A stretch of DNA of 43,234 nt from Hyphomicrobiales bacterium (GTDB lineage: Bacteria; Pseudomonadota; Alphaproteobacteria; Rhizobiales; Xanthobacteraceae), in NCBI GenBank assembly GCA_017305595.1, contig JAFKKL010000012.1, forward strand, positions 1 through 43,234. The letters run 5' to 3'. A program made the translations under genes and the position numbers. How positions within the stretch are numbered: position 1 is the stretch's first letter; the number at the start of each line of letters is the position of its first letter. Shown here piece by piece: positions 20,957-41,029 of the stretch. The notes below the pieces were generated by a model, which saw only the letters and a program-made list of their open reading frames with translations, was not told the origin of the DNA and searched no databases.

Positions 20957-22090
20957 TCATCCATCTATCCCGAGCGCCTTGAGGCCTTCGTTGAGCTTGC
21001 GCAAACCGGCCTCATTGGCCGCGAGCGCTCGTCGCGCATCATCTCGCGCCGCGCGTGCATTGTCGGGTTCCTTGAGCACCATATAGGCCCGCGCCAGCCG
21101 CAACCATCCCTCGACGTCGTCGCCGTTCTGCTTTAGCCGTGAGGCAAGACGATCGACCATGCCGCGGATCATCGCGCCGCGATCGCCCTCGCTCATGCCC
21201 TGCACCGAGGCGATGGTATCGTTCGACAATGCGGGCATTTTCGTGGACGCGCTATCGGTCGGCGTCGGAACCGCTGCGCCCACCCGCTTCAGCGCGGCCT
21301 CGATCACCGGCCGCCATGGCGCGTCCGGCTGCGCCTTGCTCAGCATATCCTGCCAGAGCGCGGCGGCCTCCTTCGGCCGCCCGTCCTGTTCGGCGGCCAC
21401 ACCGAGAAAGTAACGCGCCTTGGGTTCGTCGGCGTCGAGCGCCACCGCGCGCTCGAATTCCGCCTTGGCTTCGGTGGTGACGACGCCGTTGGCGGCTCCC
21501 GCCAGCGCCTCGCCGAGACCGGCCCGGCGTGCAGCATTATCTCCGTCGTAACGAATGGCGTTGCGGAACGCCTGCGCGGCATCGTCAAAACGACCGATGC
21601 GCCCGAGCACGGGCGCCAGCACGGCCCAGCCACGGCCATCCGTCGGATTTTTCTCCAGATGCGTCTGCACCTGCGCAACCAGTTGATCGAGCGATTGCCC
21701 CGTCGCCGGCGCGCGGGTGCGGCTCGCCAGCGGAAAGTCCGGCAATGCAGGCGAGCCGAGATGCAGATAGAGCCCCGCGGCGAGAACCGGCACGCCGATC
21801 AGCGCAACCATCGCTGCCGCGCGGCGCAGCCGCAGGCTCGAGGACACCGCGCTCGTCTCTTCGGCATCGGCGGCGGCCAGCAGGCGGCGGCTGATTTCGA
21901 CGCGGGCGGCCGCGCCCTCGGTCTCACCGATCAAGCCGTTGGCGATGTCGCGGTCGATTTCCGCCAGTTGATCCTGATAGACCGCCGATTCACGGCCCTC
22001 GCGCTTGACGGCCGTGCGACGGCTCAGCGGCCAGAGCACGGCGAAAATCGCTCCGACGGTCATCAACGCGAGCAGAAACCACAACGACAT
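20957..22090 (-). CDS. ccmI: Cytochrome c maturation protein CcmI/CycH
   Basis: CcmI is a membrane-bound chaperone that holds the apocytochrome C-terminus for the CcmF/CcmH ligase. It has 377 residues: TM1 at 1-22, a short cytosolic coiled segment with the family motif YQDQLAEIDRDIANGLIGETE (about residues 38-58), TM2 near 93-110, then a periplasmic domain with TPR-like repeats (for example RGWAVLAPVLGRIGRFDDAAQAFRNA near 150 and KARYFLGVAAEQDGRPKEA near 225). It is the first gene of the cycHJKL operon. The symbol cycH is used in rhizobia. Confidence 0.93.
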   Translation of the reverse strand: MSLWFLLALMTVGAIFAVLWPLSRRTAVKREGRESAVYQDQLAEIDRDIANGLIGETEGAAARVEISRRLLAAADAEETSAVSSSLRLRRAAAMVALIGVPVLAAGLYLHLGSPALPDFPLASRTRAPATGQSLDQLVAQVQTHLEKNPTDGRGWAVLAPVLGRIGRFDDAAQAFRNAIRYDGDNAARRAGLGEALAGAANGVVTTEAKAEFERAVALDADEPKARYFLGVAAEQDGRPKEAAALWQDMLSKAQPDAPWRPVIEAALKRVGAAVPTPTDSASTKMPALSNDTIASVQGMSEGDRGAMIRGMVDRLASRLKQNGDDVEGWLRLARAYMVLKEPDNARAARDDARRALAANEAGLRKLNEGLKALGIDG

Positions 22091-22187: not shown

Positions 22188-22225
22188 GCACTGGAACCGG
22201 CGGAAAAATGCTGTGAAATCAGGAT

Positions 22226-22434
22226 AATTAGCCGGCGCGGGCGGATTTTCGCTCGCCGTTCAGGGCGGTCTCGGCGGCCCGCTCCATCAGCGCGGCATAG
22301 TCGCGACCGAACAGCACCTCGCAGAAGCGGATCGCGGCCTTGACCTGCATCTGGCGGAACGGAAGTACCTTGCTGTCCGCGCCGCGCAACGATTCCACCA
22401 GCGCTTCGGTGGTCGGCTCGAGATAGTGCTGCAA
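22226..22434. repeat. 209-base direct repeat, left copy (duplicated 3' end of the 24181-25575 gene)
   Basis: This copy aligns without gaps to 24179-24387 with four mismatches. All four fall within 22361-22389; the other 180 bases are identical. Both copies begin with AATTAGCCGG and end with GTGCTGCAA. Confidence 0.97.
22228..22434 (-). pseudogene. Detached 3'-terminal fragment of the hypothetical gene at 24181-25575
   Basis: The last 68 codons and the stop of the neighbouring 464-codon gene are repeated here without the rest of the gene. An internal ATG-led frame remains open, but it has no ribosome site of its own and corresponds only to the parent C-terminus, with one residue difference (VLPFRQ for VLRFRQ). 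It is best read as the remnant of the original gene end, cut off by the insertion of 22435-24178, or as the flank brought in with it. Confidence 0.85.
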
Positions 22435-22446
22435 TGTGCCTGAAAT

Positions 22447-22638
22447 TCAAGCATTTTGGGTAATTTTACGCAAAGTCTCTTGCAGCGCTTTTCGATGCTG
22501 ATTCATGACAGCGCGAACGTCGTCACGCGCGGCGTCAGTAGGGGATTTTTGGGAGACGTTAGAGGGAGAGACAATTATATCAATTTCTCGCCGCTCAGCC
22601 TCAGTTAAGCTAGCAACCCCTGCATGGTTCTTAAGCAT
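22447..22638 (-). CDS. Small protein, partner of the Ntn-hydrolase-like gene
   Basis: I do not recognise this protein of 63 residues. It is charged and probably helical, with Asp/Glu/Arg-rich segments (LTEAERREIDIIV; AARDDVRAVMNQHRKALQETLRK), no TM segment and no cysteine. The ATG at 22638 has GAGG seven to ten bases upstream. A GTG at 22650 overlaps the preceding stop (GTGA) and would add four residues. Either way the gene is tightly coupled to the upstream Ntn-hydrolase-like gene, so the products probably act together, for example as a regulator, inhibitor or adaptor. It ends 12 bases before the left repeat. Confidence 0.65.
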   Translation of the reverse strand: MLKNHAGVASLTEAERREIDIIVSPSNVSQKSPTDAARDDVRAVMNQHRKALQETLRKITQNA

Positions 22639-22646
22639 TTGGAACC

Positions 22647-23930
22647 TCACTTCTTGGGTTGATTGTAGTGTCTAACAAAAAAACGCGGATTCAGTTCCGG
22701 AGGGAAATAGTGCTTGCGCTTAGTCCAAACGAATCCCTCCGATTTGGAGAGTATCGCAACGTCAACATCGCCGCCTACAGTTTCCTGAGCACGCGACACC
22801 TTTCTTTTCAAGGATGTGATTTCAATAAGTGACGCTGCAAGAGTGGCAATCTCTTGGACCGGCATCGATCTAATCATCTCCTTTATCTGAGATGTAAACG
22901 CGCTATCGATATACTGATCCGCTTTGCTAGTAAAATCGCGTTGCATCTTATCGAAATCTGGCTGAAGGGCGGATAGCGCAGCATCAACCTTTGCTTTGTC
23001 ATTCAAAGTGACACCCAGCGTTAAAGCAGAAATATCCTTTATGACATCGCCCAGCAACCGCTTTACATAACTTCTAAAGAGTGGGTCAACTCCATGCAGA
23101 AAACTTTGAACCATATCGTCCTGTGCGAATCCCAGAATGTCCGCCGATGGCCCATTTCTACCGATATCAATCGAGGTCTTTTCAACAAACTTTAGTTTGC
23201 CGTCGACAATACCGTCTATCTCCACAGCCTCCAAAGATGGGCACAGTTCGTCCTCTCCAAATCCAGTAAACACTAGGCCAGACCGATAGGAGGAAAGCTG
23301 GGATTTTGCCAAAAAATAGCCAGCGTATTTGGTGGTTAGCTTCAGGGTAGCGCCATTTGGCATGTTGTTCTTCAAACAATCTTTCGCGACGTCCGCTATT
23401 ACACCCTCGAAGCGCGTGGGCACCTTTACTCTGTTAAAACTCGGCGCGAATGGCTTCGCTTTAAGATCAGCAATTTCCTTATTTAAAATGCTTTGTGTTA
23501 GGCCGTTGATTTTTCCGCGGCGGAGCCGTCCATGTGAACGAATATCGTCCAGGATCAGCTTATCGGCCCGGTTATGCGCTTTTGTGAAAAAATCAGTTGC
23601 GATAATTGCTACATTCGTAGCTTCATCCGCCGGTGAGTACGGAACGTCGCTCCGCAGATAGTTTAGGAAATCGTCTTTGTAACCTTTGACGTGGCTAAAG
23701 CTCTGATGTCCTAACTTGCGACGGTATTGCTTGATTATCGTCTCAATCGGAAGCCCCATAAAATCAAGGCGACCATAAATCATCACACCGACCGGGTGGA
23801 CGGTGCTCAGTTCGAAAATCTTATTTACGGTATTATAGATTTTCGTGTTTGGATGGCGACCAATTGTCACTGCGCTGTCAGCGGCCAAGGCTGCCGCCGG
23901 CTTATTCAAAATAGCTATTTCAGCTGTCAT
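22647..23930 (-). CDS. Proteasome-beta/HslV-like Ntn-hydrolase-fold protein, accessory
   Basis: This 427-residue protein has an N-terminus resembling the first strands of proteasome beta subunits and HslV: Met-Thr, then AEIAILN, then ALAADSAVTIG, then NKIFEL and PVGVMIYG. If Met is removed, Thr becomes residue 1, the Asp of AADS falls exactly at position 17, and the Lys of NKIF at 36, near the proteasome Thr1/Asp17/Lys33 triad. This favours the ATG at 23930 over a TTG at 23966. The remainder (about 100-427), largely helical to the eye, matches nothing I recognise and makes it about twice the length of HslV. No ATPase partner such as HslU is adjacent. Codon use is AT-richer than its neighbours. 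Fold assignment is moderate; activity and role are unknown. Confidence 0.65.
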   Translation of the reverse strand: MTAEIAILNKPAAALAADSAVTIGRHPNTKIYNTVNKIFELSTVHPVGVMIYGRLDFMGLPIETIIKQYRRKLGHQSFSHVKGYKDDFLNYLRSDVPYSPADEATNVAIIATDFFTKAHNRADKLILDDIRSHGRLRRGKINGLTQSILNKEIADLKAKPFAPSFNRVKVPTRFEGVIADVAKDCLKNNMPNGATLKLTTKYAGYFLAKSQLSSYRSGLVFTGFGEDELCPSLEAVEIDGIVDGKLKFVEKTSIDIGRNGPSADILGFAQDDMVQSFLHGVDPLFRSYVKRLLGDVIKDISALTLGVTLNDKAKVDAALSALQPDFDKMQRDFTSKADQYIDSAFTSQIKEMIRSMPVQEIATLAASLIEITSLKRKVSRAQETVGGDVDVAILSKSEGFVWTKRKHYFPPELNPRFFVRHYNQPKK

Positions 23931-24178
23931 CTTCCCGCCAACCTGATGCGGCGGCCTTACGAGCAATTTCTTGTCTTTATTCGGCTAGGAGCTTTTCAGC
24001 CCGCTTCCGCTCTCGCCCTTAAGCCCCCTGACCTCCCCAACTTTAACAGGGTATTTTTAGCCGACTCGCGGTCTAGTTGCGAATCCAATTTTAGCTGTGT
24101 CGACTGGACAAGCTATTTCTGGCCACGCGTGAGCCATAGCTAGTTGGACTGTCCTACAACTACCTGCGAGATTTTGCG

Positions 24179-24387
24179 AATTAGCCGGCGCGGGCGGATT
24201 TTCGCTCGCCGTTCAGGGCGGTCTCGGCGGCCCGCTCCATCAGCGCGGCATAGTCGCGACCGAACAGCACCTCGCAGAAGCGGATCGCGGCCTTGACCTG
24301 CATCTGGCGGAACCGAAGCACCTTGCTATCCGCGCCGCGCAGCGATTCCACCAGCGCTTCGGTGGTCGGCTCGAGATAGTGCTGCAA
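24179..24387. repeat. 209-base direct repeat, right copy (3' end of the intact gene)
   Basis: This is the counterpart of 22226-22434. The right copy is the natural end of the open reading frame at 24181-25575. After 24387 the similarity stops abruptly. Confidence 0.97.
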
Positions 24388-25575
24388 GTCGGAGAAGGTG
24401 CGCAGCGTCACCTCGTTGATCGCGAGTTCGCTGGCATAGGTGCGGCACACCGCGACGAAATCGATCAGCGCGGCGGTTTCATCGATATCGATCGGATCGA
24501 GCCGACTGGTGGCGGAAATGTCCTTGGCCGGGCGCTGGCGCAGCAAGCGGCGCACGCGGCCGGGCACGCTGTCGATCTCGGTTTGAAGCGCGTTGGAGAT
24601 ATCGACGCGGATGGAGGCGAGCTGGCGCCCCCATGCGGAGTCGTTGCGGATGTCGAGTTCGGTGCGCAGCCCGCGCACGCCATCATGCACGGTCTTGAGG
24701 CCATCGGGAACGTTGGCGAAATTGCCGCGCTTGATGTCGGCGCGCAGACCACCGGCGATCTGGACCAGATCGTGGATCGCCATTGTCACCGCCACACCGA
24801 ATGGCGTCGCGGCCACGCGGATTTCATCGTCGGAGCCGGCGGCGGCGATCGCCAGGCGGATCACCTGCCACGGCGCGACCAGACGCGCGACTACCAGCGA
24901 GAGCGCAAAGGGCAGCACCTGTCGGCTCTGCAAGGCGGGATTGTTCAGCGCACCGTTGACCGAGGCGATCTGGGACTCGCCGAACGCCCGCAAGGTCGCC
25001 GGCAGCCGGCCGTTGAGCATGTCCAGCGCCTCGCGCGCTTTCAGGACCGCGCCGATTGCCGGCAGATCCTCGATGGCCTGCGGCGATCCGAGGCGTGACA
25101 GTGTACGGCGGCTGTCGGCTCCGCCGGTGAGAACGAGATCGATCGCCTCTGCTGCGGCGGCCTGAAAAGCATTCGCCGCGCGATTGTGCTCCGAAGCGGA
25201 TGCTGTCTGCGCCGGTTGCGCCAGCGCGGCCTCGAACGCACGCGCGGCATCGGGAGCGCCGTCCCGGCACAGCCATTGCCAGACCGGCAGCAGCGAACCA
25301 CGGCGGATTTGTCCGGGCCGGATCGCGGCGTTGCCGTCGACCAGGAACGGCTCCAGCGGGCGAAAGGCCAATCGCGCCGGGTCTTCAGCCCGTGCGGTGA
25401 GGTCGTCACTGGGGCTGCGAGCGACCCGGCGCAGTTCCTCCAGCACCAGGGTGGCCACCGTCGCGTCGTCGCCACGCTCGATAGCGCGCTCGAACTCGCG
25501 CATCAGCAAAGCCTGCGCCTTGGGCGGAAGCTGCGCCAGATACTCTCTCAGCCGCTCGCTCGTGGTCTTGGCCAT
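24181..25575 (-). CDS. Hypothetical protein, unknown function, carrying the insertion site
   Basis: I do not recognise a domain in these 464 residues. The protein is Ala/Leu/Arg-rich and probably all-helical, with one moderately hydrophobic stretch (about 218-240, LPFALSLVVARLVAPWQVI). It starts MAKTTSERLREYLAQLPPKA and has no signal peptide. Codon use matches the host, unlike the insert behind it. It lies between feuQ and cycH, which are close neighbours in Rhizobium leguminosarum, so this gene is itself extra there. It is presumably a conserved protein of the Bradyrhizobium group; this is recollection, not a search. Its last 209 bases are duplicated beyond the insert. Confidence 0.8.
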   Translation of the reverse strand: MAKTTSERLREYLAQLPPKAQALLMREFERAIERGDDATVATLVLEELRRVARSPSDDLTARAEDPARLAFRPLEPFLVDGNAAIRPGQIRRGSLLPVWQWLCRDGAPDAARAFEAALAQPAQTASASEHNRAANAFQAAAAEAIDLVLTGGADSRRTLSRLGSPQAIEDLPAIGAVLKAREALDMLNGRLPATLRAFGESQIASVNGALNNPALQSRQVLPFALSLVVARLVAPWQVIRLAIAAAGSDDEIRVAATPFGVAVTMAIHDLVQIAGGLRADIKRGNFANVPDGLKTVHDGVRGLRTELDIRNDSAWGRQLASIRVDISNALQTEIDSVPGRVRRLLRQRPAKDISATSRLDPIDIDETAALIDFVAVCRTYASELAINEVTLRTFSDLQHYLEPTTEALVESLRGADSKVLRFRQMQVKAAIRFCEVLFGRDYAALMERAAETALNGERKSARAG

Positions 25576-27835: not shown

Positions 27836-28408
27836 TTACTTTTTCTTCGCCACCGCCTTGGCCAGCTTTTCCAGCAGGCCCGGCGCGTCCTGCCCGGTCG
27901 CCGCGCAGACTTTTTCGCGGGTCCGGCCGCTGATGTAGACGCCTAACACGCCGAATCGAAAGCCCCAATAGGTGACAAACAGCGCCGTCGCGCCGATCAT
28001 CGCATTGATGGTTGCGACATCGCCGGTCCAGAATTCGTGGACCAGCACGATCCACAAAGCGGCGCATTCGAACGTCAATTCGAAAGCATAAAGCGGCCGC
28101 CACCAGCGCTGCACAACGTCGTCGCTCGCGATCTCGGCACGGATCGTCGCCTGCGTCTCGCTGATCGCGGTGCGCTGCGTTTCGGCTTCAGCGCGGATCG
28201 TTTCGATCCAGCGTGCCTCCGCTTCCGCGAGCTTGTTCGAATCGGCGCCCGGCAATGCGGCCTGCACGGCTCCTGGCGTCGGCGTAGCGGTGCCCAACAC
28301 CGTTGCGAGAATTTGCCCGGCCGCGCCGCCGAGCGGACCACCGAGCGCCGTTCCGAGCATCGGCGCTCCGAGCCCAATCACCTGTTTGGCGAGATCGCTC
28401 CAGTCCAT
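27836..28408 (-). CDS. GTA-type holin (3 TM family)
   Basis: This inner-membrane protein of 190 residues resembles the family 'holin of 3TMs, for gene-transfer release'. It presumably makes the membrane lesion that lets the endolysin reach the cell wall during GTA release. A Gly/Ala-rich hydrophobic N-terminus (about 8-40), a charged coiled segment (about 58-95), then two clear hydrophobic segments (about 105-125 and 131-155; FECAALWIVLVHEFW and NAMIGATALFVTYWGFRFG) and a Lys-rich tail are visible. It follows the endolysin stop with a one-base gap, and its GGAGGA site lies inside the endolysin end. It is the last gene of the GTA cluster, 101 bases ahead of feuP. Confidence 0.85.
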   Translation of the reverse strand: MDWSDLAKQVIGLGAPMLGTALGGPLGGAAGQILATVLGTATPTPGAVQAALPGADSNKLAEAEARWIETIRAEAETQRTAISETQATIRAEIASDDVVQRWWRPLYAFELTFECAALWIVLVHEFWTGDVATINAMIGATALFVTYWGFRFGVLGVYISGRTREKVCAATGQDAPGLLEKLAKAVAKKK

Positions 28409-28409
28409 C

Positions 28410-29189
28410 TCATGTCCTCCCGAACAGCTTGGCAGCGGCCATAAAAAAAGCCGCCCAGACGGACGGCTGCGATGCGGTTGTCGAATTGACGGCAGGATCG
28501 GGCGGCGGCTTCACCGGCGCTGCAATCACCTCGCCCCACTCCGCCTTTTGCAGGATCGGCAGAATGCGTGCGAGCTGTGCTTGCCGTTCCGCAAGGCCGT
28601 TTGTGCCGCCGTTCCAGGCTTTGACGCAACCGATGAAATCGTCGGCGTCGGCAAAGTGATTCATGCCTTTCCAGTCCCAGAACGCTGCGGCGATATCGGG
28701 CTGCAGCGCGGGTTGCGACGCAAGTTCGGGATTGGCTTCGAGATCGACGCCGATGCGTTTGCCGATTTCCACATAACCGTCGCGGCCGGTAATCTGCGGC
28801 CCGCCACGACCGACATAGCGAGAGCCGTCCGACGTGCCCGGACGATTGCCCATCCGGTTGCCGTAGATGTCGTCGAACGCCTTCGTCTGCCAGCCCGACG
28901 CGGTGCCATACTTCGCCTGCACGGCGGCCGCCGACGCAAACCGGTTCGGCCACACCTGCGCCATCCGCGCCGCCGTGTAGTTGATGTTTTCAGCCAGGTT
29001 CCTGATGGTGAAACCACTCGTCTCCGCATGCAGATTGGCGAAGCAATAAGCCAATCGTTGCCGCGACCAATTCAGCCCCGCCGCCGACAGCACGCCCTGC
29101 TTCTCGACAAACGCCGCAACAACCGCATCCGACGCACCCGGAAAAGCCACGCGCATCGTCGCGAGCGAAAGGCGAACTCCTTCGGGCAT
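28410..29189 (-). CDS. GH19-like endolysin (chitinase-class muramidase)
   Basis: This peptidoglycan-cleaving enzyme of 259 residues has a lysozyme-like GH19 fold. A catalytic Glu is likely at residue 56 (HAETSGF) and a second at 67 (LAENINYTAARM). The family core DDIYGNRMGN and RYVGRGGPQITGRDGY at about 107-140 is well preserved. A Pro-rich linker and a hydrophobic C-terminal stretch (WAAFFMAAAKLF) suggest membrane association. The ATG at 29189 has AGAGGA upstream; the frame is open to 29243, but without a ribosome site. It forms a lysis pair with the holin and would serve particle release. Confidence 0.88.
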   Translation of the reverse strand: MPEGVRLSLATMRVAFPGASDAVVAAFVEKQGVLSAAGLNWSRQRLAYCFANLHAETSGFTIRNLAENINYTAARMAQVWPNRFASAAAVQAKYGTASGWQTKAFDDIYGNRMGNRPGTSDGSRYVGRGGPQITGRDGYVEIGKRIGVDLEANPELASQPALQPDIAAAFWDWKGMNHFADADDFIGCVKAWNGGTNGLAERQAQLARILPILQKAEWGEVIAAPVKPPPDPAVNSTTASQPSVWAAFFMAAAKLFGRT

Positions 29190-29311
29190 CCGTTGTCGTC
29201 CTCTGAAGTGGATCGCGTGGCCAGATGGCCCATTGCCCCCCAAATGGGGGACGCGCCTGGTTAAAGGATGGGCTAAAGACCCGTTTTTGAGGAATTTTTG
29301 AAAGAACTGTC

Positions 29312-29398
29312 GTGATTGAAACGTTCGAATTATTAATCACTGCCGCTGCGTTATATTTTATCGTCTCGGCGGGCCTCGAGTGGCGGCAACCCCGCTAA
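29312..29398 (+). CDS. Possible 28-residue single-TM protein
   Basis: A GTG-started frame encodes about 28 residues: short acidic head (MIETFE), one hydrophobic helix (LLITAAALYFIVSAG) and a charged tail (LEWRQPR), the layout of a small inner-membrane protein. Its TAA overlaps the ATG of the next small frame (TAATG), which suggests translational coupling. No strong ribosome site is seen. It is opposite in direction to all GTA genes. It could be a chance frame. Confidence 0.3.
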   Translation: MIETFELLITAAALYFIVSAGLEWRQPR

Positions 29399-29523
29399 TG
29401 CGGATGATCGGCCTGATCTTCCTTTCGGCGATCTGCGCTATTTTCTTTAGCCTTTACCAGGAGTCGGCGCTGGCATCCTGCCGATCCGCACCACTGCTGA
29501 CCGTATTTGGCATTTGCTCGTAA
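29398..29523 (+). CDS. Possible 41-residue small secreted or membrane protein
   Basis: An ATG-started frame encodes 41 residues: MRMIGLIFLSAICAIFF forms a hydrophobic segment, followed by ESALA-S, a possible signal-peptidase site, and a short tail with two cysteines. It overlaps the preceding small frame by one base and ends 42 bases before the convergent DUF4376 gene. It resembles no family I know. The hydrophobic pattern, the coupling and the lack of any gene on the other strand make it a candidate only. Confidence 0.3.
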   Translation: MRMIGLIFLSAICAIFFSLYQESALASCRSAPLLTVFGICS

Positions 29524-29565
29524 CAACGTTCAGCAACAAGCCCGGCAATGTCGTACACACTACGA

Positions 29566-29979
29566 CTACAGCCAATACTGGTCGTCTGTGACGTCGAGCG
29601 GGATCGGATTCATCGCCTGCAGCGCAAAGCTTGCGGTCCAGATCGGCTGGCGGAAGGCCGCGGCAGCGATGAGAATGTGTTGCCACTCGATCGCGGTCAC
29701 CTGCACCGGCCCCGCTTCGGTCACGATATCGATCGTTGAGACCGGGTCGTTGAGCGCCAGCATCGCGTTGGCGATTTTGGTCACTTCATCCCAGCCACGC
29801 ATATCCTGCTCCGACGTCGCGATACGATGCACGCCGCGCGTATCGCCGAAGTCGTGCGCGAACCCGACCCCCAGTCGCCGCTCACGCTCGGCGATAATCG
29901 CGGCAATTCGTGCCTGACGCGTTTGCGCGGCCTTCATGTCGGCGGTGACAAGCTTCGATAGATCAATCGTCGCCATCAT
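29566..29979 (-). CDS. DUF4376-like tail-associated protein
   Basis: This protein of 137 residues begins MMATIDLSKLVTADMKA, continues with a charged helix (TRQARIAAIIAERERRLGVGF), and has the pattern of DUF4376, a domain found beside phage tail-fibre genes. No enzyme motif is seen. The start overlaps the preceding stop (ATGA at 29976-29979), and the longer frame to 30126 has no support. By position it belongs to the variable distal end of the GTA tail module and is probably a structural or chaperone protein for fibre-like parts; this is inference. Confidence 0.65.
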   Translation of the reverse strand: MMATIDLSKLVTADMKAAQTRQARIAAIIAERERRLGVGFAHDFGDTRGVHRIATSEQDMRGWDEVTKIANAMLALNDPVSTIDIVTEAGPVQVTAIEWQHILIAAAAFRQPIWTASFALQAMNPIPLDVTDDQYWL

Positions 29980-30272
29980 GCTTCTCCCGGCAAGGTAATC
30001 GGCCCGTCCGCCGGATCGACGATGTCCGCCGGAAAGCGAACGCTCTCCGGCGCATCGGCATCGTGCGGCAAGATCAGCGTCAGATGCAGAACGTCGGCAA
30101 TCCGGCGCACCGTTCCGACGAGCCAATCGTTGGAGATGGCGTCGGCCGGCAATTCAGCGCCATCCGGGATCGCGCTGAGATCGATCGTGTCGCCATTGAC
30201 GATGAGGCGATCGCCGGCCCTGCTGAGCGACAGCGTATCGCCGCGCAATTGAGGACAGAACTGAATGATCAT
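29976..30272 (-). CDS. Hypothetical small protein in GTA tail module
   Basis: These 98 residues carry no recognised domain. The protein begins MIIQFCPQLRGDTLSLSRAGDRL and is rich in beta-type sequence (DRLIVNGDTIDLSAI; VLHLTLILPHD), ending in a Pro/Asp-rich tail. It overlaps DUF2793 upstream and DUF4376 downstream by four bases each, so it is translated as part of the chain. Similar small proteins often lie between tail-fibre-like and DUF4376 genes in phages. A structural role is likely but not shown. Confidence 0.65.
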   Translation of the reverse strand: MIIQFCPQLRGDTLSLSRAGDRLIVNGDTIDLSAIPDGAELPADAISNDWLVGTVRRIADVLHLTLILPHDADAPESVRFPADIVDPADGPITLPGEA

Positions 30273-31594
30273 GCTGCAAGACCCATGACGACGGCGTTGA
30301 TGGTGAAGGTGGACGAATCCGGCGAGTTCTGCGGCGATGACACATACAGGCTGACCGACGAGAACGTTGCGTAGATATAACTGGCATAGCCGGATCGGCT
30401 ACCGACCGCGCCGTCCACGACTTGTCCCCATGCGCCGTAGATCGCGGAGAAGTTCGCAGGCAGTGCCCACGATCCGCAGTCGCGATACGAGCCCCACGCC
30501 GAATTGGTGAACGCGCCTGCTGCAACATTGATCGACTGCGTGCAAATCTGCCAGCCATTGGGGTCGATCGTCCATTTGCCGGTGGCATTCGATCCGATGC
30601 GCATGAACTGTCGCGTCCAGCCGGTCCAAACGTTATTGAGCAGTTCTCCGGTATAACGCTTTCCGTCGGACGCATTGGCAAATTGAAAGATGCAGTAGTC
30701 CGACGCCAGTTGTTGAACAAACAGCCAGCCATTCCCGGCTGTCGGCATATTCGAGCATCCGTTGCAGTAATAGAATCCGGTCGGTCGAGAAGCATTCGCG
30801 CTTTGCGCCGCCGTCAGATTGATGACGTTTCCACCCAGTCCGAACGCCCCCGTCGTCATCACGCGGTCGGCGGTCGCGTCGGCGAGCGATACCTGCTTGA
30901 TGAGGCCAAGGCCGCTGCGCATCGCAGCGGCATCGGAGAAACCGTGAAACGCAACGTTCCCCGTGGATTTGTCGATAACGAAGGCATCCTGCCAGCTCGC
31001 CCCATCGGGCGAAACCTTGAGACGGAAATGATCGTCACCAGTGAGCCCAAACTCGGCGCGCCCCGAATAGTTGTCTGAGAAGAACACCGATGCGGTGTTC
31101 GCCGCTGCCTGCTTTGAAATCTGCAAGCGCGCATCGCCGCTGCCGCCGTCTGCCGTCGTGATCGCGGCAATAAGCGCGGCATTGGATTTGACGCTGAGCA
31201 GATTGGGCGTGGTCGCGGTCGTATTGACGCCGAGCTGGCCGACGTCGTTGGCCAACGGCGCCAGCGCCTGCCATGCGCCGCCGTCGAAGATGAAGATCGA
31301 CGTATCGGCCACCGACCACAGGCGCCAGCCAGTCTTTGGCGCGAGGAACACCCATGCGCCGTCCTGCCACGTCGCGATGGCCGCGGCATGTCCTGCCCAG
31401 GCACCGGTTGCGCCGCTGGCAATGACATGGCGCTGGCCTTCCGCGGGCGATGGCGGCGGCGCGGTGCGCGTCATGTCGTCGACGACGATCTGGATCACCG
31501 CGTCGAGAATCCGCAGCGCCTCGTTATGCGTGACGTGTTTCTGCGCCTGGCTGTCTTCGATGAAGGGCAGCCCCAAATGCGTGGTGTCTGTCAT
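30269..31594 (-). CDS. DUF2793-containing tail fibre-like protein
   Basis: This protein of 441 residues has an N-terminal DUF2793 domain (about 3-150; LGLPFIEDSQAQKHVTHNEALRILD, of which only the pattern QAQKHVTHNEAL is diagnostic). The middle resembles tail-fibre sequence with repeated short beta segments, and the C-terminal half has Trp/Gly/Tyr-rich blocks (GKRYTGELLNNVWTGWTRQ). DUF2793 follows the megatron gene in many alphaproteobacterial GTA clusters, where head spikes or tail fibres recognise capsule. It starts six bases after the megatron stop. A receptor-binding role is inferred from context. Confidence 0.82.
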   Translation of the reverse strand: MTDTTHLGLPFIEDSQAQKHVTHNEALRILDAVIQIVVDDMTRTAPPPSPAEGQRHVIASGATGAWAGHAAAIATWQDGAWVFLAPKTGWRLWSVADTSIFIFDGGAWQALAPLANDVGQLGVNTTATTPNLLSVKSNAALIAAITTADGGSGDARLQISKQAAANTASVFFSDNYSGRAEFGLTGDDHFRLKVSPDGASWQDAFVIDKSTGNVAFHGFSDAAAMRSGLGLIKQVSLADATADRVMTTGAFGLGGNVINLTAAQSANASRPTGFYYCNGCSNMPTAGNGWLFVQQLASDYCIFQFANASDGKRYTGELLNNVWTGWTRQFMRIGSNATGKWTIDPNGWQICTQSINVAAGAFTNSAWGSYRDCGSWALPANFSAIYGAWGQVVDGAVGSRSGYASYIYATFSSVSLYVSSPQNSPDSSTFTINAVVMGLAA

Positions 31595-31600
31595 GATCCC

Positions 31601-34600
31601 TCAGAGGGTGAGAGTGATTTCGGTCGGAAAGCCCGCGCCGACCGCGCCGGAGAGTTGCGCCACGCGCACGCGAAGGCTCGTCTGCGGCGTGCCAAAATCC
31701 GTCAGTTCGTCGGCATTGGCATAGAGCGCGTTCGGGCTCGCACAGGGGATGCTGCGCACCATCGCCCCGCTCGACAGGATGTCGAGCACGTAGGCCTCTG
31801 TATCTTCACCCAGCGGCACTTCTGCAGCCCAGCCGTCGCCGTCGACGCGCGTGCGACGAATCCACGACAGATGAATGCCGTCGCCTTGCCGCACGGCGAC
31901 GACATGCACCGGCGACAGCGGCCGCAACGCGGTCGCGCCCGGCGTCACGGTGAGAGCGATCGCGGCGGCATCGTCATGGCTGCGGTTGCTGGCGACGATG
32001 CGCAGATCGAGCGGCCGCTCCAGCGCATCGCGGCCCCGCGCCAGCGGCAGCAGGTGCTCGTCGAGCACCACGAACGGCGCGCCGGCGGGAAGTTCATCGA
32101 CGATGGCGTGTTCGCTGCCGCCCTGCCCGCGCAGCAATCGCGACAGCCGATAGGTGTTGGCTTCGATCAGATCGGCGCCGGCGAACTGGACCACCTCCCA
32201 CGCACCGGACGGATTGCGGATCGCCGCAGCATTGGCGCCTTCCAGTACGCGCGCGTCGGTCTTCGACGTCAACGCGCCGCCGTAGAGGCGAACACGGATG
32301 CTCGCACCGGTATTCCAGCACGCCGCCGCGCCGCGCGGCAGTGCATCGAGCGTTTCGCCGATGGTCGCCGGAGCAGCCGCCACCAGCATCGGCCGATAGC
32401 CGGCACCGTCAGCGGAGCGCCACACCGTCACCGAGCCGGGCCACGGATTGGCGAACACTGCGAGCCGCGTCAACACCGGCGGCTCGGTCGCATCGAGCGT
32501 CGGCAGATCCAGCGCCAGCGCGACCGCCGGGCCGAGCGCGCGCGGCATCGCGGGGACAGCGCGGCGCGGCAATGGCAGCGGCATCGCGAAGACATCGGGA
32601 TCGATGCTGCGCGCGGTGACACGGCGCGATTGCGTATCCACCAGACCGTCGATCTCGAACAGGCGGCGGCGACCGTCTACCGTCACCGCAACCACATCGC
32701 CCGGCGCAAGCGCGAGCCGGTCGATCCCGAGATCGAACGCGATGCTTTCGCGCCCGGCCCAAAGGTCCTGCAACCAGATTTCCGCGCGCCGTGTCGCGGC
32801 GGCATCGTTGTTCACCACCGCCAGATCGGATCGCACGATCCGGTTGGCGCCGCCGACCAGCCGCCGCGAGGTGACAGCGGAGCGCCGGTAATCGACCGAA
32901 GCATCGGTGAAGCCGAACGATACCTCGCGCGGCAATTCGGTTTCCTGCGCGCGCGTCAACCGCGCCGGCGCGGCATCGTTCGGCAGCACCAGATCGTCCT
33001 CGTCGAACTCCGCCACCGGCGCGCTGCCGCGTTGAATGAAGCGGAGCGTACCGTCCGCCGCCGACGCGTTGAACGTATAGGCCATTGCGAGCGGATCGAT
33101 CATCGCGCGCGGCGTCATCGGCCGATCGACGACATAACCCTCGCAAATCTCGCGCAACGCCGAACTGTCGGCGCCGGTGACATCGGCGTCTTCGAGAATT
33201 GTCGCCACCAGCGCATCGAGCGGCGCGCCGCCGAGCCGCCCCGTCAGCCAGTGCCCAGTTTGCCAGTTCGGCCCATCGCTCCACACCTCTTCCGCCGCGG
33301 GAAACAGCGGATAGGGCCGCGCATCCCAGGTCCACAGATGAATTGCGGATGCATCGATCATGCGTCCGCCATAGACCGACGATACCGGGTTGCGCGCATC
33401 ACTCGCGCCGAACGCCGGATCGAGTGCGCCGAGAAAGGCTTCGAGATAACGACGCTGCATCAAGTCGTCGCGCGCGCCGTTGGAAAAATACGGCGCGAAA
33501 TTCTCCGACGATTTCGGATCGGGAAACACGCTGGGCTGATTGGCGCCCTTATCGACCGCCGGACAGCCGACCTCGGTAATCCAGATCGGCTTGCTTTGCG
33601 GCAGCCATACCGTCGGCGTCGTCAGTTCGACACCGCCGACGCGCTCATAGTGCGCGCTCGCCCACCAATTCCAAATGTCCTTGACGCGGAACGTCCACGG
33701 TTTGCCGAGCCCGTCGGTGATCGGCAGACGCGTTTGCGCCGCGCGCGCGGCGTCATCGGCATAGTACCAATCGAATCCCTCGCCCGCGCTGACGTTGCCA
33801 GCGAGATAAGCAAGGTCGTAGGTCGAAGCGGCGGTCTGCGAATCCAGATGCTGTGCCTCGTCGCGCCAGTCGGCCAGCGGCGCGTAGTAATCGATACCGA
33901 CGACATCGATTGCCGGCGACGCCCACAACGCATCGAGCGGAAAGCGAACCTCGTTCGCATCGGCATCGACCACGTCGGAGCCGTACTCGGTCCAGTCCGC
34001 GCCGTAGGTCACTTTGGTCGCGCCGCCGACGATGGCTTTCACTTCTGTGGCGAGCGTCACCAGCGCGTCGACCGCCGGATAAACGCCCGCGCCCGAACGC
34101 ACCCGCGTCAGCGCCTTCAATTCCGAGCCGATGAGAAATGCATCGACGCCGCCACAGGCCTGCACGAGATTGGCGTAGTGCAATACCATGCGGCGATAAT
34201 TCCACTCGCCGCCGCTGAAGAAGTCCGCCACCTGCGTCGCCGCTGTTGCCGTGCCTTGCGGCGAACCCGGCTGTCCCGGCGCGGGATCGCAGGTGATGCG
34301 GCCGCGCCAAGGATAAGGCGGCTGCGACGCCGCGCCGGTCCACGGATTCGGCAACGCGTTATCCGCCGCGATATCCATCATCACGAACGGATAGAACGTC
34401 ACCTTGAGGCCGCGTGCCTTCAGCTCGGTGATGAGATGCGCGACGCTGTCGTCGGACGGCGTGCCGCCATAGGCCGGACGGCCATTCACCTGCGACACCA
34501 CGTAGGCATTGTCGCGCGTGAGGCTATCGACCGACCAGGTGCCGCCGTTGGTGGTCTTGTCGGCCGTCTCGACGCCCGGCTGCACGGTGCAGTGCCCGGC

Positions 34601-35455
34601 GCGCAGATCGTTGCCGAACCACGCTACCACCACCGCGACGCGTTCGAGATTGGGACACACGCCGTGCAGATCGTCGAGCGCCGCCTCGACGTCGGAGGCC
34701 GCATGCGCGACGTGGCGGTTCTCGTTGGCGGATTGTCCCGGCCCCAGCACCGCGACCACCGGCGACGGCTCGTAGCCGAATTCTGTGGTACCGGGGATCA
34801 GCGTCACCGCACGGACCATTTTCTCGAGCGGTCCGACCGGCCGCACGATCTCGAACGACAGTTGCGGAATGCGGTTACCGAAATCCGCCAGCGGCAGGCG
34901 CTCGAACACGATATAGGCCGTGCCGCGATAGGCCGGTGCGTTGCCCACGCCCTCGCGCGCGACGATCAGATCGTCGGCGGCCTGATCCTCGCGGCCGCGA
35001 TGCACGCGGATCGCGAGGCCGGTGGTGTCAAGCAGTTTGCCGTCGGCCCAGATACGGCCGACACGCGCGATTTCGCCGTCGCACAGGCCAACAGCAAAAT
35101 TGGCGAAGTAAGTATACGTCGTGGTCGTGGTGGTCGGCCCGCCGAGCATGCCGCCCTTGCCGCCCGACGATGTGGTGTCGGTCGAGACCATTTCTTCCAG
35201 AGGCGTCGCCCAGATCACCTGGCCCGACAACCGGGCACGGCCGTAGATGCGCGGCATCGGCGCGCCTTCGGTCGAGGCCATCACGTCGAGATCGGCGAGG
35301 CGCGGCCCGGTGGCGGTGCGATCGCCGGGGCCGAACACGGTGCGATCGATGACGTTGCCGACCAGCGCGCCGGCGATGCGCCCGGCAATCGCGCCGACCG
35401 GCCCGAACGCCGCGCCGAGCGCGCCGCCGGCGATGGAAAGAACGAGCGCGGCCAT
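31601..35455 (-). CDS. GTA tail hub-tip protein with TIM-barrel domain ('megatron', RcGTA g15-like)
   Basis: This baseplate-tip protein of 1284 residues is the largest GTA gene product. The N-terminus MAALVLSIAGGALGAAFGP is a Gly/Ala-rich hydrophobic segment, possibly a membrane-penetrating part. The middle (about 215-520) is the GTA TIM-barrel domain, glycosidase-like, with VTYGADWTEYGS and the nearby VWLPQSKPIWITEVGCPAVDK, where the Glu would be a catalytic position. A phage tail domain (phage-tail_3) and a C-terminal rcc01698-like region follow. The start overlaps the stop of the NlpC/P60 gene (TGATG at 35453-35457). It contacts the outer membrane of recipient cells in the R. capsulatus particle. 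Confidence 0.92.
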   Translation of the reverse strand: MAALVLSIAGGALGAAFGPVGAIAGRIAGALVGNVIDRTVFGPGDRTATGPRLADLDVMASTEGAPMPRIYGRARLSGQVIWATPLEEMVSTDTTSSGGKGGMLGGPTTTTTTYTYFANFAVGLCDGEIARVGRIWADGKLLDTTGLAIRVHRGREDQAADDLIVAREGVGNAPAYRGTAYIVFERLPLADFGNRIPQLSFEIVRPVGPLEKMVRAVTLIPGTTEFGYEPSPVVAVLGPGQSANENRHVAHAASDVEAALDDLHGVCPNLERVAVVVAWFGNDLRAGHCTVQPGVETADKTTNGGTWSVDSLTRDNAYVVSQVNGRPAYGGTPSDDSVAHLITELKARGLKVTFYPFVMMDIAADNALPNPWTGAASQPPYPWRGRITCDPAPGQPGSPQGTATAATQVADFFSGGEWNYRRMVLHYANLVQACGGVDAFLIGSELKALTRVRSGAGVYPAVDALVTLATEVKAIVGGATKVTYGADWTEYGSDVVDADANEVRFPLDALWASPAIDVVGIDYYAPLADWRDEAQHLDSQTAASTYDLAYLAGNVSAGEGFDWYYADDAARAAQTRLPITDGLGKPWTFRVKDIWNWWASAHYERVGGVELTTPTVWLPQSKPIWITEVGCPAVDKGANQPSVFPDPKSSENFAPYFSNGARDDLMQRRYLEAFLGALDPAFGASDARNPVSSVYGGRMIDASAIHLWTWDARPYPLFPAAEEVWSDGPNWQTGHWLTGRLGGAPLDALVATILEDADVTGADSSALREICEGYVVDRPMTPRAMIDPLAMAYTFNASAADGTLRFIQRGSAPVAEFDEDDLVLPNDAAPARLTRAQETELPREVSFGFTDASVDYRRSAVTSRRLVGGANRIVRSDLAVVNNDAAATRRAEIWLQDLWAGRESIAFDLGIDRLALAPGDVVAVTVDGRRRLFEIDGLVDTQSRRVTARSIDPDVFAMPLPLPRRAVPAMPRALGPAVALALDLPTLDATEPPVLTRLAVFANPWPGSVTVWRSADGAGYRPMLVAAAPATIGETLDALPRGAAACWNTGASIRVRLYGGALTSKTDARVLEGANAAAIRNPSGAWEVVQFAGADLIEANTYRLSRLLRGQGGSEHAIVDELPAGAPFVVLDEHLLPLARGRDALERPLDLRIVASNRSHDDAAAIALTVTPGATALRPLSPVHVVAVRQGDGIHLSWIRRTRVDGDGWAAEVPLGEDTEAYVLDILSSGAMVRSIPCASPNALYANADELTDFGTPQTSLRVRVAQLSGAVGAGFPTEITLTL

Positions 35456-35895
35456 CAGTCGGTCACTCCGGGAAAGGCGAAGACATAAGCGAGACGGCGC
35501 CGCCACCACGGCGCGAGCCGTACCTCGCACACCGCCGCGCCGTCATGGGCATGGATCATAGTGCTGTCGCGCGTGGCGATGGCGACATGCTTGGCGACAT
35601 ATCCGGCGCGCCAGCGAAACAGCAGCACATCGCCGGCCTCGAATTGATCGACGGGAACGGGAACGAGATGCCGCAGCGCAGCCTCCGCCAGCGCCTCCTC
35701 GCCGCGCGCCTCGGCCCAATCGGCAGCGTAAGGCGGCGGCAACTCCGGCTCGTCGCCGATGCGCGCGCGCCACACACCGCGCACCAGGCCGAGACAATCG
35801 CAGCCGACGCCTTTCACCGACGCCTGATGACGATACGGCGTGCCGATCCATGCGCGCGCCTCGGTAACGATGGCGTCGCGTGTGATGGGAGGCAT
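35455..35895 (-). CDS. NlpC/P60-family tail peptidase (RcGTA g14-like)
   Basis: This cell-wall peptidase of 146 residues at the tail tip opens recipient peptidoglycan for DNA entry. The catalytic Cys is residue 34 in GVGCDCLGLVRG (DC-LG in place of the common DCSG), the His lies at 103 in AKHVAIA, and a third polar residue is near IHAHDG. The ATG at 35895 fits the family N-terminus (MPPITRDAIVTEARAWIGTPY). The open frame upstream to 36075 runs through a palindromic repeat and is not coding. The gene overlaps the megatron gene; the gap to the hub gene holds repeat copy 2. Confidence 0.9.
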   Translation of the reverse strand: MPPITRDAIVTEARAWIGTPYRHQASVKGVGCDCLGLVRGVWRARIGDEPELPPPYAADWAEARGEEALAEAALRHLVPVPVDQFEAGDVLLFRWRAGYVAKHVAIATRDSTMIHAHDGAAVCEVRLAPWWRRRLAYVFAFPGVTD

Positions 35896-35933
35896 TGGCG
35901 TTTGTCCCTGGTTGTAACGATGACTCCACAGCG

Positions 35934-36053
35934 GTCGTCCCCGCGAAGGCGGGGACCCAGACCCCCTGGCGCTGGTTCTGATCAAATGAACTGGCCCAGG
36001 GTGACAGAGCCGAACCGCTGCGGCGTATGGGTCCCCGCCTTCGCGGGGACGAC
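35934..36053. repeat. Palindromic intergenic repeat unit (copy 2, between hub and peptidase genes)
   Basis: Arms 35934-35956 and 36031-36053 are perfect inverted copies of each other (core GTCGTCCCCGCGAAGG type), each able to form a hairpin. The unit is of the same family as 18291-18403 and 37898-38016. It fills most of the 220-base gap between two GTA tail genes that are normally adjacent. Confidence 0.88.
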
Positions 36054-36119
36054 TCTGTTCGAGTTGCAGATCCACCGACAGAACAAATTTTTGACTGAGC
36101 CCTCACGATACCAATCGCG

Positions 36120-37019
36120 TCAGTCGTACGCGCTACCGTATGTGGTGCCGGTCGTGCCGCCGCCCGGTTTCGGATAGCTCATGACGAAATCGTTGCCCGG
36201 AATGTGCGGGAAACCGCGGAAGTTGAGCGAGTTGGCGAAGCGGTTGCGACAGGTCGCGAATGTCTTGTCGCAACCGGCCGTCACCACGAAGGCGTCACCG
36301 ACGCCAATCGGCTCCGCCATCGCCTGCCACAGCGACAGCACGGCGTGGCCGCTCTCGACACGGTGCTGTTTAATCTCAACAGACAGCCCGGCGTTGGCAC
36401 CGGAACTCCAGGTCAACCGTCCGGCGCTGAACCACGTCGCGATGAAGCCATCGAGCTCGGAGGCGATGAACTGCGACGTGCCCGTCACCGTGCTCACCGC
36501 GCCCATGCCGCGATAGGCCGGATTCGACAGATCGATCCCGCAACGCGCATCGCCGAGATCGGCGCCGCATTTCGCGGTGTAGAAACGCCCGCTCTCCTGC
36601 GCCAGCAAATCGGCAAGGCCGCGCAACTCGGCGGTGAAAGCCGCGCCTTCGCGCTTGACCTCGCCAAGCGAGCCACGCGCGGTGAGAACGCGTAGTGTCG
36701 GTTCGCTCCAGTCGACCAGCCAGGTTTCGATTTTCGCAGCATCGTAGCGGCCTGCTGCGAGATCGGCTTCAGTAAGCGAGGCATCCGACAGTGCACCGGA
36801 AATCTCCGTGTCAGCCACCGATAGATCGAACCGGCTGCTGGCTTCCGACGCGGTGAAGCCTGTGCCGGCGCGGCAGGTGATTGCATCGATCGCGATGTCC
36901 ATATCGTGATCGGTAAAACCCTGCACGACACCGTCGCGGCGATGCAGCACCCAGCACCGCGCCAGTGTGGTGACACCGCTATCGAGTTTTGTTTGAAGCG
37001 CGGGAGGAATGGAGCGCAT
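36120..37019 (-). CDS. GTA tail hub protein, DUF2163 family (RcGTA g13-like)
   Basis: This hub of the baseplate has 299 residues from the ATG at 37019 (GGAAGGA upstream). The DUF2163 N-terminal domain covers about 1-160 (IPPALQTKLDSGVTTLARCW; GFTDHD) and the C-terminal beta domain about 190-285. Four cysteines are visible in two pairs, KCGADLGDARCGID and GCDKTFATCRNRF, the pattern expected for the iron-sulfur site known in phage and GTA hub proteins. The end GFPHIPGNDFVMSYP is typical. The gene is separated from its neighbours on both sides by palindromic repeats rather than being overlapped. Confidence 0.9.
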   Translation of the reverse strand: MRSIPPALQTKLDSGVTTLARCWVLHRRDGVVQGFTDHDMDIAIDAITCRAGTGFTASEASSRFDLSVADTEISGALSDASLTEADLAAGRYDAAKIETWLVDWSEPTLRVLTARGSLGEVKREGAAFTAELRGLADLLAQESGRFYTAKCGADLGDARCGIDLSNPAYRGMGAVSTVTGTSQFIASELDGFIATWFSAGRLTWSSGANAGLSVEIKQHRVESGHAVLSLWQAMAEPIGVGDAFVVTAGCDKTFATCRNRFANSLNFRGFPHIPGNDFVMSYPKPGGGTTGTTYGSAYD

Positions 37020-37043
37020 AACAAGTCCTTCCAACATGATGAG

Positions 37044-37134
37044 ACGTCATCACCGGGCTTGACCCGGTGATCCATCATGCAAAGAAAATGACGTAAGATA
37101 TCGATGGATGCCCGGATCAAGTCCGGGCATGACG
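37044..37134. repeat. Second family of palindromic intergenic repeat, between distal tail and hub genes
   Basis: Two hairpins, 37050-37070 (TCACCGGGCTTGACCCGGTGA with one unpaired centre) and 37108-37130, are related as inverted copies: both contain CGTCAT..CCGG.CTTGA..CCGG..ATCCA on opposite strands. The family differs from the GTCGTCCCCGC units. No gene lies here. Confidence 0.85.
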
Positions 37135-37179
37135 CTCAACTCGCTCGTGGCGTCCGCGTATCCTCAAACGTCGAAAGGA

Positions 37180-37821
37180 TCACGCCTTGATTTCCACCAG
37201 CGGAATCTTCGGAATCGCGCCGGCGGAGAAGGCTGACAGATCGACTTCGAGATAGTCGGTATCGAAGCGCACCGGCACGTCGAACTGAAACCCGGCGGTG
37301 ATCGCCTTGCCCGCTGCCGGGATGTGTCCGGGCAGAAAAGTCACGATGCCAGTGGCCGCATCGCAGGTGAACGCGACGCCGCTCGTCATCTCGACATGAT
37401 CGACCGCGACGCGCACGCTGCCCGCAGCCGGCTTGACGATTGGCCGCTGATACGGCGCGTAGCTCGCGCCATAGGTCTTCACCAGTTGAAACGATGTCGT
37501 CGCCCCGTCGCCAACGCCGATGCCCTGATCGAGTGGCGACACCGCCTCTCCACTCGAGGCCGAACTGCAGTCGAGCCGGTCGCGCCAGCGGAAGCCGTAA
37601 AGCTGGCCGCGTCGTTCCTCGAAGAACGCCACCACGCCGCGCAACGCATCGAGCGTCTTGACGCCGTAGCCGGCATCGTAACGCCGCCGCGAATGTGCCC
37701 AGCGCGCATTGCGCTGCTCGCGCCCGGAACCGAACGAGACGATATCGGTCCGCCGCTCCGGCCCGCCTGCACTCTTCAGCGCAACGTCGAGCGGAAACAG
37801 CACCTCATGAAATGCGGTCAT
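37180..37821 (-). CDS. GTA distal tail protein, DUF2460 family (RcGTA g12-like)
   Basis: This distal tail protein of 213 residues links the tail tube to the hub. DUF2460 hallmarks are MTAFHEVLFPLDVALKSAGGPERRT at the start (only FHEVLFPLDV is needed to recognise it), RRRYDAGYGVKT, FFEERRGQLYGFRWRDRLD, and the C-terminal beta-sandwich ending VPVRFDTDYLEVDLSAFSAG. The ATG at 37821 is chosen for the family start; the frame extends to 37890 without support. It is flanked upstream by repeat copy 3 and downstream by the second repeat family. Confidence 0.92.
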   Translation of the reverse strand: MTAFHEVLFPLDVALKSAGGPERRTDIVSFGSGREQRNARWAHSRRRYDAGYGVKTLDALRGVVAFFEERRGQLYGFRWRDRLDCSSASSGEAVSPLDQGIGVGDGATTSFQLVKTYGASYAPYQRPIVKPAAGSVRVAVDHVEMTSGVAFTCDAATGIVTFLPGHIPAAGKAITAGFQFDVPVRFDTDYLEVDLSAFSAGAIPKIPLVEIKA

Positions 37822-37897
37822 GGCGAAATCCAAAAATGATGTCGTTATCCCGCGTACCTGACTTGAAGTGTCGCGCGCGGGCTCAAACAACTTCGGC

Positions 37898-38016
37898 GTC
37901 GTCCTCGCGCAGGCGAGGACCCAGATTCCCTGGCGTCGGTCGTTATAAATAACCTCGCTTCAGCCGATCGAACCGAACCGCTGCGAAGTCTTGGTCCCCG
38001 CCTACGCCGGGACGAC
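37898..38016. repeat. Palindromic intergenic repeat unit (copy 3, between tape measure and distal tail genes)
   Basis: Arms 37898-37920 and 37994-38016 have the same architecture as the other two copies. In the left arm, paired changes (GTCCTCGC...GCGAGGAC instead of GTCCCCGC...GCGGGGAC) keep the hairpin intact, a compensatory substitution. The unit lies in the 230-base gap between two GTA genes. Confidence 0.85.
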
Positions 38017-38051
38017 GGTGATCGAGTTGCGGCTCCTCGTTTGAACCGCAC

Positions 38052-39179: not shown

Positions 39180-39189
39180 CGTGCTCTCC

Positions 39190-39597: not shown

Positions 39598-39612
39598 GGG
39601 CTCGTTCCTTCT

Positions 39613-40023: not shown

Positions 40024-40080
40024 TGCGGCATCCCATGAAACGGATTCGAAGCGATCGATCGTCATTGCGCGCGAAGTGCG

Positions 40081-40967: not shown

Positions 40968-41029
40968 ACGTCGTTCCTTTCGATGCTCGGAAGTTGACAG
41001 GCGCGGCGCGGCGATGCTTTGTCGCGCGC

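Follow-up and report, generated by a model that had tools for sequence, protein, structure and literature searches.

A proteasome-like hydrolase of the multiple-insertion type and a conserved small partner gene on an AT-rich insert in a Hyphomicrobiales genome

How a protein with the amino terminus of a proteasome beta subunit or HslV comes to lie on a short foreign insert, and what it might do there, is the question raised by gene 1 (P0001) of a Hyphomicrobiales bacterium (assembly GCA_017305595.1, contig JAFKKL010000012.1). The stretch that was analysed, referred to below as the window, is 43,234 nucleotides long; its features at this locus are collected in Table 1. The original prediction, made from the sequence alone, read the product as a self-standing proteasome/HslV-like Ntn hydrolase on an accessory insert. 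It proposed that the fold be checked by structure prediction and Foldseek, and that Thr2, Asp18 and Lys37 be followed through homologues.

Table 1. Features of the locus, in window coordinates
Feature	Position	Strand	Basis
Gene 1, proteasome-like Ntn hydrolase of PMI type (P0001), 427 aa; ATG at 23930, stop codon ending at 22647	22647..23930	-	ORF, alignment, predicted structure, phrog_5990
Gene 2, small partner (P0002), 63 aa	22447..22638	-	partner profile, model
GAGG, a Shine-Dalgarno-like sequence for gene 2 that overlaps the gene 1 stop codon	22645..22648	-	sequence upstream of gene 2 ATG
Foreign insert with both genes, GC 0.477	22435..24178	.	composition, relatives
Direct repeat copy A: 3' end of flanking gene and native downstream bases	22211..22434	.	
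Direct repeat copy B: 3' end of the intact flanking gene; near-identical part from 24179	24164..24387	.	
Host gene, 464 aa, no Pfam match, insert at its 3' end	24181..25575	-	
Host gene, CcmH/CycH-type TPR protein, on the other side of the insert; adjoins the 464-aa gene in relatives	20957..22090	-	

Gene 1 lies on the minus strand, which the original prediction left unstated. After methionine removal the mature protein would begin with Thr1, which is followed by Asp17 (in ALAADS), Lys36 (in NKIF) and VGVMIYG, as had been claimed; the catalytic lysine of the family falls 3 residues later than Lys33 of the proteasome. Full-length enzyme ORFs numbered 118, of which 96 are distinct and 80, the window's copy included, remain at less than 80% identity; 19 partial ORFs were dropped before counting. 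Threonine occupies position 2 in all 96 distinct sequences, and T2, D18, S19 and K37 are each kept in 80/80 aligned members, a diverse set, so that the proposed catalytic residues are conserved throughout. A16, P61, G218, G223, V385, D390, G399, W402 and K406 are likewise invariant at two decimals (n=80). Position 53 is glycine in 47 of the 80 and asparagine in 27, its equivalence to Gly47 of the oxyanion hole being a reading of the alignment. The window protein is 26–52% identical to the full-length relatives used. Together with the structural model, the alignment and these invariant residues show an intact active site in the gene 1 product, a putative hydrolase.

The AlphaFold2 model of the gene 1 protein, built on 61 sequences, has a pLDDT of 92.9 and a pTM of 0.89, and the Ntn alpha-beta-beta-alpha fold was found in it. 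Foldseek returned 571 PDB matches up to E 10, 54 of them with E <= 0.001, and the best 50 of these 54 are all proteasome entries or Anbu. The TM-scores are low (0.28 by query and 0.55 by target for the top match) because of helical insertions in the gene 1 protein. With VIA-align, applied to the Foldseek top 1000, the best Z was 17.4, at which eight rows are tied; all are yeast beta5-type chains K or Y (rmsd 3.0–3.5, 179–187 residues aligned), and in them model residue 2 lies on Thr1. At this Z, residues 1–195 of 5d0v_Y (yeast beta5) are aligned with model residues 2–410 (rmsd 3.4, 185 aligned). In a viral structure library the top match is a phage 'Proteasome beta type-2 subunit' (E 2.8e-6). 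It is nearly certain that gene 1 belongs to the proteasome-like Ntn family, and the predicted likeness to the proteasome and HslV is borne out by the model.

One part of the original prediction has to be revised. The protein had been given a long C-terminal part of no known family, yet in the model the C-terminal segment, ETVGGDVDVAI...GFVW, supplies the last strands (389–395 and 399–404) and so closes the Ntn core. The extra length consists instead of helices at about 100–208, after H1/H2, and of a helix at about 312–354, between H3 and H4, where the numbering H1–H4 is the present authors' reading of the predicted model. An actinobacterial copy of 328 aa (L008:10001-10984), in which the first helical insertion is almost wholly absent while T2, D18 and K37 are kept, represents a natural minimal form.

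At the level of sequence, the link to HslV and the proteasome is weak. Searches of Pfam, NCBIfam and the PDB (phmmer) with P0001 gave nothing relevant, and PF00227 (Pfam Proteasome) has no match to it up to E 10. When the family was compared by hhalign with a shallow HslV profile of seven sequences, the probability was 0.8% (E 0.071); a PDB search with the family profile gave archaeal beta subunits as its top matches, at E about 0.002 and over 17 residues only; and a relative from a Providencia phage matched phrog_1040, 'peptidase HslV family', at E 0.0033. In PHROGs v4 one family, phrog_5990, covers residues 1–420 of P0001, nearly end to end (E 3.7e-94), and is given no function there. Neither hslU nor any other recognised ATPase lies beside gene 1, whose flanks are gene 2, the CycH-type TPR gene and the 464-aa gene; the earlier statements that the protein is not HslV and has no ATPase next to it agree with these results. 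The host genome has a separate HslV-type gene, matched by PF00227, on another contig. Gene 1 resembles 20S beta subunits and HslV in its fold, its N-terminal threonine and the order of Asp and Lys, but its product is about double their length, as predicted (427 aa vs about 200 in the matched beta chains), it carries two helical insertions, and it has a small partner gene in place of a recognised hslU.

Proteins of this kind have been catalogued by Fuchs, Alva and Lupas (2021), who described 22 groups of proteasome homologues with few clues to function (PMC8665760). The 'multiple insertions' (PMI) groups among them have insertions at the two sites seen in gene 1; PMI-3 and PMI-4 have both, and no PMI group other than PMI-4 is marked as occurring in phages (PMC8665760). 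By the published group description gene 1 is probably a PMI-4 member, and its insertions also fit PMI-3. It resembles the PMI groups in its Ntn core with Thr1, Asp17 and Lys, in both insertions, in its occurrence in bacteria, Euryarchaeota and phages, and in having no AAA+ partner. For these groups no genomic context or co-occurrence suggestive of function was found in that study (PMC8665760); what is new here is that such a gene follows nearly every copy of the enzyme. No report of the partner gene, or of a function for a PMI protein, was recognised in the literature searched, outside which subscription papers and preprints mostly fall. In PMC9122126, PMC12373910 and PMC12487901 no 'proteasome' passage was found, and in PMC13022661, which cites Fuchs et al., none on 'phage' or 'connectase'.

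The evidence for the partner comes from the DNA downstream of the enzyme in 78 of the 80 members, two with less than 150 nt there having been dropped. An ATG-initiated ORF of 40–100 aa, starting no more than 30 nt from the enzyme stop, is present in 66/78, against a mean of 6.75 and a maximum of 10 in 20 dinucleotide shuffles; when GTG and TTG starts are also allowed the count is 68/78 (shuffle mean 16.15, maximum 22). On viral contigs a short adjacent ORF of this kind follows 47 of 51 enzymes, against 23 of 102 further ORFs on the same contigs that are 300 aa or longer (Fisher p 2.6e-17). A Shine-Dalgarno-like tetramer precedes 50 of 72 partner ORFs, where 25.7 would be expected. Short genes are annotated after the enzyme in the satellites Javan468 and Javan103, a Providencia phage, a Porphyromonas phage and an E. 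faecium plasmid. A profile of the downstream ORFs of L001, L002 and L026 ranks gene 2 first among the 842 ORFs of the window (E 2e-6; next 0.97).

Twelve of the 78 members fail the strict ATG test, and 11 of these have a candidate partner by eye. In L005, L007 and L010 an ORF of 75–97 aa lies 40–53 nt away from the enzyme stop; in L057 the candidate has a GTG start; L023, L078 and L081 have mutually similar ORFs of 34–37 aa; and in L038, L109, L112 and L125 the candidate overlaps the enzyme in another frame. The sole usable full-length member with no candidate is L116, in which the enzyme C-terminus is degenerate. The partners are diverse: by BLAST, 88 partner ORFs form 15 clusters and 30 singletons, and alignment across clades is hard. 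For each of the 27 within-family pairs that pass a filter favouring conserved pairs (at least 8 changes, pN <0.35), pS is higher than pN, and dN/dS, computable for 10 pairs, is 0.06–0.52; this codon pattern shows purifying selection on the partners within families. Given the excess over shuffles, the excess of pS over pN and of Shine-Dalgarno-like tetramers, and the first rank of the window's copy in the profile search, gene 2 is very probably a real conserved gene. The description of gene 1 as self-standing does not survive, a conserved small gene following it, and the enzyme family and its two-gene cassette are well supported.

Other accounts of the small ORF were tried. A chance ORF is ruled out by the shuffles, the pS/pN comparison, the profile rank and the contig comparison. 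Programmed frameshifting that would join the two genes is ruled out by start offsets spanning -62 to +53 nt. It was also considered whether the partner had become fused to the enzyme in L038, L109, L112 and L125, which have long C-tails; by eye, these instead contain an overlapping frame with partner-like sequence. A phage search for orphan copies with one 51-aa partner gave two matches, with E 6 and 7, which is chance level. In its predicted structure (pLDDT 70.5) the gene 2 protein has a low-confidence N-terminal part and one long confident C-terminal helix, residues 33–62.

When pairs are compared at a given enzyme identity, partner and insertions vary to about the same degree, and both far more than the core; at enzyme identity 0.6–0.7, for instance, the values are 0.77 for the core, 0.48 for the insertions and 0.42 for the partner. 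This pattern of sequence variation is compatible with a contact between the partner and the insertions. The rank correlation of partner variation is 0.73 with the enzyme core and 0.64 with the insertions, and, since it is no higher with the insertions than with the core, the insertions as docking site are a guess. Fourteen loci in which the enzyme gene is broken or unusual were examined. The partner ORF is open in five of these (L006, L011, L111, L124 and L190), doubtful in L117 and L118, and not found in L009 (with 90 nt left before the end of the contig), L015, L164 and L116; L168 and L191 have no C-terminal enzyme match, and for L169 the match (E 0.39) carries no meaning. Open partners beside broken enzymes, set against a single full-length member without a candidate partner, are faintly antitoxin-like, and some of the breaks may be assembly errors.

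In the window both genes lie on an insert of 1.7 kb whose GC content is 0.477 vs 0.637 for the window as a whole, and GC3 of gene 1 is 0.49 vs 0.79–0.86 in four neighbour genes. Beyond its two genes the insert has about 260 bp, which leaves no room for a recombinase, in keeping with the AT-rich, recombinase-free accessory insert first described. It is bounded by a 224-bp direct repeat, 95% identical, the core of which is the last ~209 bp of the 464-aa gene; in this core the two copies differ at 4 positions. Copy A differs by 9–11% from the three nearest genus relatives and by 21–23% from three others. Six of seven genus relatives match both flanks, and in five of them the gap between the flanks is 23–40 bp, where 25 bp corresponds to no insert; in G007 the gap is 145 bp and the alignment ends early, and in G002 the 464-aa gene is unmatched. 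The insert sequence was not found in the stretches from the seven relatives. The cassette therefore arrived with, or created, this long near-identical duplication of the 3' end of the gene. A few kb from the insert, at 27836-41084 on the minus strand, lies a gene-transfer-agent-like cluster with matches to GTA_holin_3TM, DUF2793, GTA_TIM/Phage-tail_3/Rcc01698_C, Gp84/BR0599 and Phage_connect_1.

Relatives of the enzyme are found in many kinds of replicon. They include 11 loci in bacterial and archaeal (Methanobrevibacter, Methanosphaera) contigs, 10 plasmid records (9 with at least 80% of the query) and 13 phage or satellite records (7 with at least 80% of the query in one place). A single-sequence scan of viral contigs detected no relative; a profile scan found 153, and 80 of them were retained. 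The enzyme is uncommon and patchily distributed (4/200 relatives, 13/397 in the order and 10/398 in the phylum, in overlapping samples that include the window's own genome and some broken or partial matches). In Streptococcus satellites the enzyme is far from the integrase: a single gene comes after it in Javan468 and in Javan103, whereas in Javan421 RelBE and other genes do; in prophage Javan85 it is the last gene. It lies no more than 3 kb from a contig end in 9 of 27 representatives (4.0 expected, p about 0.013), and no more than 2 kb in 6 of 27 (2.7 expected), a modest enrichment. The 27 derive from 40 of the 80 viral contigs, picked by hand as isolate prophages and without near-identical copies; 35 of the 40 are at least 20 kb long.

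In E. coli prophages two forms of the enzyme are seen. One is on the opposite strand beside antiterminator Q, while the other lies in Rac-type prophages between an HTH repressor-like gene and ydaE, in the same direction as the HTH gene; of 5426 E. coli genomes, 13 have it at a query coverage of at least 80%. In K-12 Rac the same interval holds sieB, a 'phage superinfection exclusion protein' gene, with ydaF and ydaG; elsewhere it holds HicAB (strain AR_0118) or unknown genes (two other strains). SieB and HicAB share this interval with the enzyme but are unrelated to it, sieB is reversed, running against racR, and the common position does not show a common function. In strain ET881, 56% of the repressor region is matched (at 84%), against 99.8% identity across the enzyme region, a contrast that would be expected if the enzyme is exchangeable cargo.

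A match to known defence systems was sought as well. With a limit of E 1, P0001 has no match to any family in PADLOC-DB 2.0.0; for one satellite relative the sole match is PDC-M49B, at E 0.17. The neighbours of 20 loci were searched in an uncontrolled survey of 140 proteins, drawn from 222 ORFs; L164, L168 and L169, of 23 loci, were left out as they had no enzyme ORF match. Matches were obtained to 47 PADLOC families, and the best 25 of these 47 appear nearly all once each and include a TIR effector and a type IV restriction enzyme. Among the best 25 families of each search the neighbour proteins are diverse, with scattered defence-like and phage matches and several housekeeping genes.

The explanation preferred here, though held to fall somewhat short of an even chance, is that the two genes form a mobile accessory conflict module in which the partner controls or aims the enzyme, in the manner of superinfection exclusion or of a toxin-antitoxin pair. 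A defence or effector role is consistent with the phage-satellite, prophage and sieB-interval locations, and one trait of toxin-antitoxin systems, a small, adjacent, co-encoded partner, is present. In a more specific form, held to be slightly less likely still, the module would be an undescribed phage-borne one, a proteasome-type threonine protease whose small hypervariable partner detects or tags rivals, and it would be passed between phages, satellites, plasmids and the chromosomes of bacteria and of methanogenic archaea. With its methionine removed by methionine aminopeptidase, the enzyme would start at Thr1, so that no propeptide would be needed; the ribosome-binding site of gene 2 on the gene 1 stop would lead to co-expression of both. 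The partner would most likely bind the gene 1 protein, perhaps at its helical insertions, and may hold the protease inactive until a rival phage disturbs the pair, or present targets to it; it may be an inhibitor, an adaptor or a substrate, all three remaining candidate roles. Prophages, satellites and plasmids would carry the cassette as cargo and thereby gain an advantage over rival mobile elements. The lack of a PADLOC model match, the merely scattered defence-like matches among the neighbours, the opposite orientation of sieB and the modest enrichment at contig ends all count against a conflict module.

A different role for the partner is suggested by connectase, a monomeric proteasome homologue without H1-H2 that is a ligase and not a protease (PMC8665760). 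By this analogy the enzyme would be a specific protein ligase or processing enzyme, the partner its substrate, and the pair would modify a host or phage protein instead of degrading targets. Gene 1, like connectase, encodes a proteasome homologue that may work outside a ring; unlike connectase, it keeps H1-H2, with a helical insertion after them. Insertions such as those of PMI-3 and PMI-4 have been suggested to be able to block ring assembly (PMC8665760), and a tiny, near-universal protein encoded beside the enzyme could be a substrate. A dedicated substrate would, however, be expected to keep a motif for cleavage or ligation, and inspection by eye showed none common to partners of different clades; this account is considered unlikely. 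Unlikely, too, is a regulator of lysogeny or phage development, a protease whose target would be a repressor or virion protein of the very phage that carries it: occurrence in temperate phages and prophages, in E. coli next to antiterminator Q or to a repressor-like gene, speaks for it, but plasmids carry the cassette too, as does the chromosomal insert of the window, which contains no phage genes, and the place of the enzyme in phage maps varies from record to record.

ATP-independent protein quality control, as proposed for uncapped 20S or BPH, would account for the fact that no AAA+ partner is recognised beside the enzyme, and such roles have been put forward by Fuchs et al. for homologues without unfoldases (PMC8665760). 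That an enzyme so rare and patchy in the phylum sample, carried on mobile elements, should do this work in a host that already has an HslV-type gene seems distinctly improbable. Finally, the cassette might be a decaying selfish remnant, now functionless in this host, given that several relatives are broken and that the window's two repeat copies already differ; with both window genes open, the catalytic residues kept and partners elsewhere with pS > pN, this is considered very unlikely. The near-universal second gene offers a handle on PMI function, so that what PMI homologues do becomes directly testable. Should the two genes prove to serve defence or exclusion, proteolysis of the proteasome type would be added to the means by which phages and satellites compete, and the system would bear on how proteasomes arose.

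Two further observations concern the surroundings of the enzyme in other replicons. A multiubiquitin/ThiF operon lies near it in 5 of the 10 matching plasmid records; it was seen in four of nine sequences (L022, L124, L125 and L189) and, by coordinates only, in NZ_CP017104, and tblastn found none in the other loci among 191. The four Rhizobium plasmids with this operon are one lineage (about 80% identical or more), the operon in the Rhizobium sequences that were seen comes with ClpP and, in two, DUF6527, and the arrangement in Mesorhizobium differs. At L161:7631-11858 there is an apparent tandem duplication of the enzyme and its neighbours, the copies lying 2.8 kb apart with identical scores.
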